Of a DNA stretch of 34,816 nucleotides, positions 23,367-26,219 are shown piece after piece. Each line of letters starts with the position of its first letter. The first letter of the stretch is position 1. Under the pieces are notes generated by a model, which was not told the origin of the DNA, made no database searches, and saw only the letters and a program-made list of their open reading frames with translations. The position numbers were made by a program, and so were the translations under genes. Where the stretch lies: assembly GCA_022600175.1 (NCBI GenBank), contig JAHZKW010000132.1:1-34816 (forward strand), written 5' to 3'. This stretch comes from Campylobacterota bacterium (GTDB lineage: Bacteria; Campylobacterota; Campylobacteria; Campylobacterales; QNZT01).

Positions 23367-23435
23367 TAAACCATCATAACAAAAAAGGTGTAAAAGGTTA
23401 AATTATATTTCATTCTGAAATTTACAAAGATCTGG

Positions 23436-23441
23436 TATAAT
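23436..23441 (+). promoter_or_regulatory. Putative -10 box for the thioredoxin-fold/rhodanese operon
   Basis: TATAAT on the plus strand 21 bases before ATG 23463; an AAAGGA ribosome-binding site lies between. No other promoter-like site is apparent before the following three tightly packed genes. Confidence 0.5.
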
Positions 23442-23462: not shown

Positions 23463-23930
23463 ATGCGTCTATTTTTATTTGTCACACTTTTAATGGGTTC
23501 TCTTTATGCAAACCATGTACGTTATACCACAAACTATGACTTAGCACTTAAACATGGTATCAACAAAGATAAGATCGTCATAGTGATGATCGCACTTAGA
23601 GGATGTCCTGTCTGTGAATTTATGACCGATCGTGTATTTGAAAATAAAGAGATTGTAAACTACCTTCATACGCACTACATCACTGTTATCAAATATCTCC
23701 ATAGAGATAAAATCCCTAAACGATTTAAAACTGAACATACTCCAACATTTTTCTTTATCGATCCACATACCCAAAAACCGATACGAAAAAGAAAATTTGG
23801 AGGATCAACAGAAGAGAAATTTCTTGAAGTAATTCAAGATGTAAAAGAGCTTTATGATTCACAAAGATTACACAATCAATTAGATACAATAGACGCGCAA
23901 GAAATCAATAGTACAAAAGGAACTCTATGA
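23463..23930 (+). CDS. Secreted thioredoxin-fold protein 1 of a tandem triplet (CPVC)
   Basis: A 155-residue protein with a signal peptide (about 1-16, ending SLYA) and a thioredoxin_7/DUF255-like fold. The redox motif is CPVC (Cys48, Cys51) followed by EFM, the cis-proline loop is HTPTFFFIDPHTQK and the C-terminal helix region starts FGGSTEEKFLEV. It belongs to the same family as the next two proteins: all share NY-x2-AL near the N-terminus, CPxC-x2-M, PTF-x-FIDP-x-T and a GG loop before a FLE/FLA-type helix. It has a longer, polar C-terminal tail than the others. Probable periplasmic thiol-disulphide or sulphur-handling role, by inference. Its stop overlaps the next start by 4 bases (ATGA). 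Confidence 0.82.
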   Translation: MRLFLFVTLLMGSLYANHVRYTTNYDLALKHGINKDKIVIVMIALRGCPVCEFMTDRVFENKEIVNYLHTHYITVIKYLHRDKIPKRFKTEHTPTFFFIDPHTQKPIRKRKFGGSTEEKFLEVIQDVKELYDSQRLHNQLDTIDAQEINSTKGTL

Positions 23931-24367
23931 AAAAAGCGCTTTTATGTCTAGTACTTATCAGCACATTTTTAACGGCCAACACACTAAAGACTAATCACAA
24001 CTATAAAGAAGCCCTGACACTGGCAAAAGAAGAGAATAAACTCATTCTTTTTATGGCAAGTATTGAAAGTTGTCCTGTCTGCGATTATATGAAAGATATC
24101 GTATTAGAGCGTGAACAAATCATCAGTTATCTCAACCAAAACTATATTGTTGTAATCAAAGATATTGAAAAAGAACACTACCCTATACGTTTTGTAACTA
24201 TTGATGTACCTACTTTCTCTTTTATAGATCCACATACACACAAAGAGGTACATACTAAAAAAATAGGCGGTGCAAAACCTGAAAAGTTTTTAGAAATTCT
24301 TACCCTTGCTAAAGAGGGTGAAAATAATCAGACCATTACCTCTATCAAGGAAACCCATGTTCAATAA
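23927..24367 (+). CDS. Secreted thioredoxin-fold protein 2 of a tandem triplet (CPVC)
   Basis: A 146-residue paralogue of its two neighbours, with a signal peptide (about 1-17, ending FLTA). CPVC is Cys49-Cys52 (ESCPVCDYM); the cis-Pro loop is DVPTFSFIDPHTHK, and IGGAKPEKFLE is nearly identical to the equivalent stretch of the third copy. It starts within the stop of copy 1 and ends 11 bases after the start of copy 3, so the three are certainly co-transcribed and probably translationally coupled. Redox substrate unknown. The acidic residue after CPVC and the Met two residues later resemble SoxW/thioredoxin-like proteins of sulphur oxidisers, which is suggestive only. Confidence 0.82.
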   Translation: MKKALLCLVLISTFLTANTLKTNHNYKEALTLAKEENKLILFMASIESCPVCDYMKDIVLEREQIISYLNQNYIVVIKDIEKEHYPIRFVTIDVPTFSFIDPHTHKEVHTKKIGGAKPEKFLEILTLAKEGENNQTITSIKETHVQ

Positions 24368-24761
24368 ATTTATTATCACACTTAGCATTTTTACTAGCAC
24401 ACTTTTTGCGGTAGATTTTGACTTTTTTACTGATTATGAAAAAGCACTGACAAAATCACAAACTGATCAAAAGATAGTAATGCTTATGATCTCCTCAAAC
24501 GAGTGCCCTATGTGTAATTATATGAAAAACACAGTCTTTGAAGCAGAGTCTGTTGTCAACTATATTGAAGCTAATTATCACTTAGTTGAAATGCAAATAG
24601 AGGAAAAGAGATATCCCGAACAATTCAAAGCATTTGCAACACCTACATTTTATTTTATCGATCCTAAAACAGAAAAGAAGATAGGACGGCAATTTATCGG
24701 TGGTGCAAAACCAAGTGAATTTTTGGCAAAATTAAAAGAGATAAAAAAGAAAAGGAAATAG
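24357..24761 (+). CDS. Secreted thioredoxin-fold protein 3 of a tandem triplet (CPMC)
   Basis: A 134-residue paralogue with a signal peptide (about 1-18, ending TLFA). Motif CPMC is Cys50-Cys53 (NECPMCNYM); cis-Pro loop ATPTFYFIDPKTEK; then FIGGAKPSEFLAKL and a short Lys-rich tail. The start at 24357 is chosen because it begins the signal peptide and has AAGGA 5 bases upstream; the in-frame ATG at 24306 would add 17 residues lying in the coding region of copy 2 and would spoil the signal. It overlaps copy 2 by 11 bases. The rhodanese gene begins 2 bases after its stop. Confidence 0.82.
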   Translation: MFNKFIITLSIFTSTLFAVDFDFFTDYEKALTKSQTDQKIVMLMISSNECPMCNYMKNTVFEAESVVNYIEANYHLVEMQIEEKRYPEQFKAFATPTFYFIDPKTEKKIGRQFIGGAKPSEFLAKLKEIKKKRK

Positions 24762-24763
24762 TA

Positions 24764-25168
24764 ATGATCAAAAAAGTTCTATTGACCCTGATAGCTTTGC
24801 AAGCATTTTTATTTGCAGAATTTCAGACAATTAGCACCAATGATATGTTAGAGCTTCAAAAAGAAGGGGCTGCAATAGTTGATATCCGAACCCCTGGAGA
24901 GTGGGAACAGACAGGAGTGATACCAGGTACAACCAAAATCATGTTCTTTGATGATCGTGGGAGTTACAATATCGAAAAATTTATGGCTGAATTTACTAAA
25001 GTAGTTAAAGATAAAAATCAGCCATTTGTACTTGTGTGTAGAACAGCAAGTAGAACAAAAGTAGTCGGTCACTTTTTAACAAATGATATGGGATATACCA
25101 AAGCAAGAGAACTAGGTGGTGGTATCATGTTTGGCTGGCTCAATGAGAATAGAAAAACTGTCAAATAG
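24764..25168 (+). CDS. Secreted single-domain rhodanese
   Basis: A 134-residue rhodanese with a signal peptide (about 1-18, ending FLFA). Domain signs: AAIVDIRTPGEWEQTGVIPG at residues 36-55 and the active-site loop CRTASRT with Cys92, which would carry a persulphide. The six-residue loop after Cys is the usual size for sulphurtransferases. Periplasmic location, with three CPxC thioredoxin-fold genes directly upstream (2-base gap), suggests that persulphide made here is reduced or passed on by them; this is inference. It is the last gene of the operon, and the gene at 25179 converges on it. Confidence 0.88.
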   Translation: MIKKVLLTLIALQAFLFAEFQTISTNDMLELQKEGAAIVDIRTPGEWEQTGVIPGTTKIMFFDDRGSYNIEKFMAEFTKVVKDKNQPFVLVCRTASRTKVVGHFLTNDMGYTKARELGGGIMFGWLNENRKTVK

Positions 25169-25178
25169 AGCTATAAAA

Positions 25179-26219
25179 CTAGAGTAAAAAAACTAAAGCG
25201 ACCAATCCCAATAACCAAAAAAAGGTATCTGGGATTTGCTTTAAAAACGTCACAATATTTTTATCAAAAACCTTAACCATTCGAGAAACTTTAACAGGTT
25301 TTATCAACGATTTTAAAAACCCCTTTTCACCTAACTTCATCAGCCGATTTACACCCTGTTTTCCATAACTTGCTGCATATAAAAGTATCTCTTTATCTAT
25401 ATTTTGGGGAGTAGCTTTTAAAACTTCTTTACCACCAACCTGCAAAAAAACCGCACTCTTTTTTTCATATCTTTTTGAAAAATCAACGGCTTTTTGAAAA
25501 GATTTTAGGTCAGTAGTATGACTCAAGAGCGTCAAACTACCATTAACTCCACTCTTTTGTACCATAGTGTAAGTTTCTTGCATAAATCCTGTTAAAGGCT
25601 GTAGATCTTTAGTCTTTTGAACCTCTTTAGACGATTTTATGAGATATTTACCAAGCCATGAAGGCATCTTGCCACTCTTTTTCGCAAACTTTAAAAATGA
25701 GAGTGAACCTTTCACAGGTGCTGTCGTACCAGCACTTATCCATGTCACACCTGTTGCAACTACACCTATTGTAGAGAGTGCCACTAAAACTTTATCCACC
25801 TCTTGGTCATTGACATGATGATACCCCTCTATCATCAAATCTCTGATATCACCAAACAGGAAAAGATCACTCACTCCCGCAGCAATTTGTCCTTCAAACT
25901 CATCACTTTTACCGTAAATCACACCATTAACAACTTTTAAAGTTTTATAACCTGTCTCTGCTCGTTTAGATTGGATTTCTGCTAGTAGTGTTTGGGCTTT
26001 GAGATTATTTTTTATGTAGTCATGTTGATTAAAAAAAGAGAGGTATGCTTCAGCCTCTTGCCATCTCTCTTCAGCAATAAGCGTTTTGGTGTGGGGTAGA
26101 GGATCTATCTGTTGCAGTGCTTCAAACACCACAGGTTGACGCATATCATAACGATCATAGAGGATAAAAAAAGATAACAACAAAACAAAAAATGCTGTTA
26201 TCTTTAAAACTATACCCAT
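25179..26219 (-). CDS. Unrecognised membrane protein of 346 residues
   Basis: I do not recognise a family. Visible: an N-terminal membrane helix (about residues 5-22), a soluble part with a helical, TPR-like feel (about 35-95, EERWQEAEAYLSFF), a central hydrophobic, Gly/Ala/Thr-rich segment (about 145-170, STIGVVATGVTWISAGTTA), a long basic helical region and a C-terminal membrane helix (FFWLLGLVALVFLL) that ends the protein. It lies 15 bases after htpX on the same strand, so it may belong to the same membrane-quality-control operon. No catalytic motif or Cys pair is evident. Codon use resembles that of its neighbours. Confidence 0.75.
   Translation of the reverse strand: MGIVLKITAFFVLLLSFFILYDRYDMRQPVVFEALQQIDPLPHTKTLIAEERWQEAEAYLSFFNQHDYIKNNLKAQTLLAEIQSKRAETGYKTLKVVNGVIYGKSDEFEGQIAAGVSDLFLFGDIRDLMIEGYHHVNDQEVDKVLVALSTIGVVATGVTWISAGTTAPVKGSLSFLKFAKKSGKMPSWLGKYLIKSSKEVQKTKDLQPLTGFMQETYTMVQKSGVNGSLTLLSHTTDLKSFQKAVDFSKRYEKKSAVFLQVGGKEVLKATPQNIDKEILLYAASYGKQGVNRLMKLGEKGFLKSLIKPVKVSRMVKVFDKNIVTFLKQIPDTFFWLLGLVALVFLL

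Follow-up and report, generated by a model that had tools for sequence, protein, structure and literature searches.

The operon examined here, encoding three putatively secreted thioredoxin-fold proteins (T1–T3) directly ahead of a putatively secreted single-domain rhodanese (RHO), is real and is made of known protein families in an arrangement for which we found no name, with a conserved two-gene core. Judged from sequence comparison, the lasting unit within the Campylobacterota family of the host genome is one thioredoxin (T2) plus RHO, with the triplet a local expansion. We consider it about an even chance (roughly 0.5) that the operon is a periplasmic sulfane-sulfur module, in which a thioredoxin fed by the membrane reductase DsbD would reduce or relay sulfur held on Cys92 of RHO.

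Organisation of the locus

The window, the whole 34,816-nucleotide stretch of DNA analysed, contains the four genes on the forward strand (Table 1). A sequence-only reading had described this arrangement, and the open reading frames confirm it: T1 and T2 overlap by 4 bases (23927–23930), T2 and T3 by 11 (24357–24367), and 2 bases separate T3 from RHO, with the CPVC, CPVC and CPMC motifs and the RHO Cys92 in place. The T3 open reading frame has an alternative earlier start (TTG at 24306) in the ORF listing. Signal peptides had been proposed for the three thioredoxins and secretion for RHO; inspected by eye, all four N-termini look signal-like, with a charged n-region, a hydrophobic core and an xxA ending. 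An extended −10 match (TGGTATAAT) lies 21 bases upstream of the first ATG, that of T1, and no internal gap exceeds 2 bases, hence a single promoter for T1–T3 and RHO, as previously suggested, is plausible. A generic promoter scan was uninformative, as it returned 9 sites where 7.9 were expected. Between RHO and HtpX lies a gene on the reverse strand (25179–26219) for a 346-aa membrane-type protein without a Pfam match, which is absent from the other RHO–HtpX loci compared.

Table 1. Features of the thioredoxin–rhodanese operon, with positions in the window.
Feature	Position	Strand	Description
Candidate extended −10 promoter element TGGTATAAT	23433–23441	+	Consensus match only, usage putative
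T1	23463–23930	+	155 aa; putatively secreted thioredoxin-fold protein, CPVC, T-cisPro; 'a' clade
T1 CPVC codons, Cys48/Cys51	23604–23615	+	Sequence
T2	23927–24367	+	146 aa; putatively secreted thioredoxin-fold protein, CPVC, V-cisPro
T2 CPVC codons, Cys49/Cys52	24071–24082	+	Sequence
T3	24357–24761	+	134 aa; ATG start; putatively secreted thioredoxin-fold protein, CPMC, T-cisPro; 'b' clade
T3 CPMC codons, Cys50/Cys53	24504–24515	+	Sequence
RHO	24764–25168	+	134 aa; putatively secreted single-domain rhodanese, active-site loop CRTASR, Sud-like
RHO catalytic Cys92 codon	25037–25039	+	Cys92 invariant 15/15

Conservation of the thioredoxin–rhodanese pair

Among 22 genomes from the family of the window genome, a T gene adjoins RHO on the same strand in 15, and in a sixteenth (G008) the contig ends inside a second T. 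These 16 loci comprise 11 with a single thioredoxin, four with two (all genus g4) and one with three, the window genome itself. The triplet was therefore rejected as a conserved module. Recurrence of the four-gene unit in relatives had been named as a check; what recurs is the pairing of a thioredoxin with RHO (15/22), and three thioredoxins beside RHO occur in the window genome only. A single-protein search of genome contigs, with a reach of close relatives only, found one locus, and an independent MAG contig (L009) carries one T and RHO beside RecQ.

T and RHO overlap by as much as 56 bases at one extreme and lie 122 bases apart at the other. RecQ and/or HtpX flank the pair in several genomes; in G014 RecQ is on a separate contig from the pair, and in G005 (genus g4) the surroundings are quite different genes, neither RecQ nor HtpX. 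The pair stays joined while its neighbours change. It is absent from 6 of the 22 genomes, three of which are 99–100% complete (G001, G011 and G016), and G016 possesses RHO without T.

Elsewhere in the phylum, RHO homologues (E up to 1e-15) were detected in at least 183 of 397 genomes and T homologues (E up to 1e-10) in at least 167 of 397. None of the best 27 RHO loci outside the family had a T within about 1.5 kb; among these loci RHO is solitary, and the two homologues are common but separate. The sequence-only reading had asked whether triplet plus rhodanese is conserved across Campylobacterota; even for the pair, such conservation was rejected on these 27 loci, a sample in which rare cases could be missed. 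As RHO occurs without T in most of the phylum and in G016, T is not required for RHO as such. Outside the family, RHO homologues are frequently preceded by two genes resembling those for ribosomal proteins, rplM/rpsI by eye (L052, L053, L054, L060, L073–L076).

Relationships of the three thioredoxins

Pfam searches matched T1–T3 to Thioredoxin_2, Thioredoxin_7 and Thioredox_DsbH, with T1 and T2 near the cut-offs and T3 well above. The Thioredoxin_2 cut-off was passed by T1 and T3, with T2 below it (23.8 vs 27) but passing that of Thioredox_DsbH (27.8 vs 27). T1 and T3 are each 37% identical to T2, which upholds the view that the three are true paralogues. Eleven alignment columns, including C-P-x-C and P-T-F, are invariant in 19 T proteins of the family. 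Apart from a single CPxC pair in each, T1–T3 without their signal-like sequences contain no cysteine; the extra cysteine of T2 (C7) falls inside the putative signal peptide. The RHO-paired thioredoxin of g4 and G020 (L011, L012, L018, L020, L021, L022, L023, L032) has an extra C-x5-C near its C-terminus, which T1–T3 lack.

In the tree, T1 and T2 fall within the clade of the RHO-paired single thioredoxin (support 100/98), with T1 on a long branch (length 0.99). The residue preceding cis-Pro is variable in this clade (V, M, S, T, A, G), whereas the T3 type always has CPMC and T-cisPro. T3 groups with the second thioredoxin of some g4 genomes (support 91/93). On this phylogeny T2 is the orthologue of the single thioredoxin paired with RHO across the family, and its position, together with the predominance of single-T loci, is the reason for regarding T2–RHO as the lasting unit. 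T1 would be a fast-changing third copy, and T3 an older second one.

The T proteins resemble DsbH, AGR2-type and DsbD gamma domains by profile match, and by a fold match from a weak model. They share a secreted thioredoxin fold with CxxC with DsbH, DsbD gamma and Thioredoxin_7 (2ju5, 2fwe, 2lst), but fall far below the cut-off of the DsbH equivalog (NF043050; T2 19.6 and T3 29.6 vs 190 bits), are unfused to a DsbD membrane domain and are paired with a rhodanese. Predicted structures of T2 (pLDDT 58.6) and RHO (pLDDT 68.1), both weak models built from few input sequences, gave matches that agree with thioredoxin and rhodanese folds and carry little weight.

RHO resembles the polysulfide carrier Sud

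RHO matches the Pfam rhodanese family (PF00581, 2.5e-12), and Cys92 is its only cysteine. C92 and R97 are invariant in 15/15 family sequences, as is A18 in an N-terminus that is signal-like by eye. The RHO profile matches Sud of Wolinella succinogenes (1qxn; 1.6e-7, residues 17–129), a distant relation, and also GlpE and other sulfurtransferases; by these profile matches Sud is the nearest characterised relative of RHO in its phylum. Both are single rhodanese domains with the active-site cysteine in a C-x4-R loop, Sud being periplasmic and RHO predicted to be so. They differ in that they are distant in sequence, and in that the RHO operon has thioredoxins rather than a polysulfide reductase partner; Sud is a periplasmic carrier offering polysulfide sulfur to polysulfide reductase (PMC2628731). 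In Sulfurovum indicum, two rhodanese-like genes go up when the organism oxidises sulfur (PMC10045233).

The thioredoxin family is linked to DsbD, rhodanese and sox genes

A DsbD_TM protein is present in the window genome (1.6e-91) and in 22/22 family genomes, two of them weakly. In another family, f8, T homologues directly follow full DsbD genes in the six loci examined, with a 4-base overlap in L147, L149, L151 and L152 and gaps of 8 (L153) and 4 bases (L154). In L147, L148, L151 and L154 the f8 gene order is DsrE, secreted rhodanese, DsrE, (DsbD), T and OprD-type porin, with members missing in some of these. L148, L154 and, by eye, L147 have an ArsR-type gene next to the cluster. These loci were chosen after one had been seen, hence they are examples rather than a rate. 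The cluster resembles the T–RHO operon in pairing the same thioredoxin family with a secreted rhodanese, but it has DsrE and DsbD alongside, with the ArsR-type gene in the three loci named, and its rhodanese belongs to a different clade, scoring 27–31 bits to the RHO profile. As this rhodanese is only distantly related to RHO, there are two separate arrangements in which a member of this thioredoxin family accompanies a secreted rhodanese. We found no published name for the f8 cluster, which has the appearance of an independent periplasmic sulfane-sulfur system.

The f8 ArsR-type regulator and rhodanese weakly match the NCBIfam models TsoR and TsoB, respectively, and 14 of 19 T proteins weakly match the C-terminal part of TsoB. 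TsoB (NF045694; PMC13188914) is a rhodanese/DsbD fusion-like selenoprotein, uniting in one chain a rhodanese, a DsbD-like part and a thioredoxin-like end, whereas the operon proteins are separate, small and use cysteine, not selenocysteine, without the UxxxxU motif; their scores (T2 19.1, T3 23.6 bits) are far below the TsoB cut-off of 805.

Co-occurrence of the operon with sox or sqr genes had been proposed as a check, and at genome level we rejected it. SoxY was not found in the window genome, of which ~6% is missing, nor in G019 and G020 (99% complete), both of which carry the T–RHO operon. Operon and SoxY showed no association over the 22 family genomes (2×2 table 12, 4, 3, 3; Fisher p = 0.33), and an SQR-like probe protein, itself only weakly matched by the NCBIfam SQR model, occurred in 21/22 with or without the operon. 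Despite this, the T family itself is tied to periplasmic sulfur genes elsewhere: T homologues lie within 6 kb of soxY in 11 of 24 cases against 0.5 expected (p about 8e-13). These are of two kinds. One is a CPEC protein of 130 aa located near soxCDYZ; the other, located near soxXYZAB, is a fusion of a c-type cytochrome domain to a T-type thioredoxin (L144 1609–2370, L145 3868–4644). A CPEC-type thioredoxin of the T family also adjoins a secreted pentapeptide-repeat protein, a pair which is widespread in the phylum (L143, L146, L108, L109, L148 and 12 of L081–L107) and sits by soxCD in g4 genomes.

A possible sulfane-sulfur module and its alternatives

Rhodanese-type sulfurtransferases can draw their reducing power from thioredoxins. 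Work on a plant sulfurtransferase points the same way (PMC7995614). In the proposed module, RHO would take sulfur from polysulfide, thiosulfate or a similar donor to form a persulfide on Cys92, which the CPxC pair of a secreted thioredoxin would attack, releasing HS- or passing the sulfur on; DsbD would then re-reduce the oxidised thioredoxin. T2 would be the core partner of RHO, with T1 and T3 as extra paralogues with altered active-site surroundings. We infer the periplasmic location, the electron flow from DsbD, direct contact between T and RHO, what donates and what accepts the sulfur, and any specialisation among T1–T3. What we observed is the set of genes with their overlaps, the intactness of the active-site residues, the conserved pairing, the presence of DsbD in the genome, and the repeated synteny of the thioredoxin family with DsbD, rhodanese, DsrE and sox genes. 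We counted in favour of the module the T–RHO adjacency, the genomic DsbD, the Sud match, f8 synteny, soxY proximity, the TsoB fusion and, in the window genome, mature proteins without cysteines beyond those of the active sites. Counted against it were the occurrence of RHO without T in most of the phylum and in G016, the distance of the f8 rhodanese from RHO, the TsoB match far below cut-off, and G007, where the operon is present and the DsbD_TM match weak. A persulfide/disulfide relay, as suggested in the sequence-only reading, is the interpretation with most backing from synteny (DsbD, and the rhodanese/DsrE clusters, in f8).

An unlikely but not negligible alternative is that the thioredoxins are general periplasmic disulfide reductases, DsbH-like and serving cytochrome c maturation or protein repair, and that RHO is a co-transcribed neighbour with another task such as cyanide or thiosulfate detoxification. 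Their resemblance to DsbH, AGR2-type and DsbD gamma domains would suit this, as would the solitary RHO in the best 27 loci outside the family and in G016; the persistence of the pair across changing neighbourhoods argues against it, as does f8, where T homologues accompany a different secreted rhodanese together with DsrE and DsbD. We are more doubtful that T merely maintains RHO by reducing an over-oxidised or mixed-disulfide Cys92, as a repair partner rather than sulfur acceptor, while RHO keeps supplying another acceptor such as polysulfide reductase (Sud–Psr type). RHO is indeed Sud-like and the window genome has one NrfD-family membrane subunit, a generic family that includes the Psr membrane subunit, but NrfD was not found in the operon-bearing G019, G020 and G014, hence a Psr partner is not general, and we rejected NrfD/Psr as the rule for RHO on this patchy occurrence.

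Membership of Sox sulfur oxidation, with T as a SoxW/SoxS-type reductant of SoxYZ, seems very improbable. In Thermus, the first of the sox genes encodes the SoxW thioredoxin TTHA1422 (PMC10318464), which shares the broad thioredoxin family with T, homologues of which lie in sox clusters of sister genomes. The operon in the window, however, is outside any sox cluster, the T–RHO pairing occurs in genomes where SoxY was not found, including the window genome, and the sox-linked thioredoxins are separate forms (CPEC and cytochrome-fused). Within the preferred sulfane-sulfur module, a more specific version is speculative and, in our view, rather unlikely: a DsbD-fed periplasmic desulfurase, independent of Sox and Psr, whose three thioredoxins would each have taken on a step of their own, for example persulfide reduction, sulfur hand-over or rhodanese repair, with differing active-site surroundings (CPVC/T-cisPro in T1, CPVC/V-cisPro in T2, CPMC/T-cisPro in T3).

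Significance

Our search of open-licence literature found no publication that brings together rhodanese, DsbD, a periplasmic thioredoxin and an operon. Periplasmic handling of zero-valent sulfur by Campylobacterota that oxidise or reduce sulfur is understood only in part (PMC10045233). The conserved T–RHO pair, with the ties of its thioredoxin family to DsbD, DsrE, rhodanese and sox genes, offers a testable candidate, whose role may be a Sox-independent supply of electrons to periplasmic sulfane sulfur.
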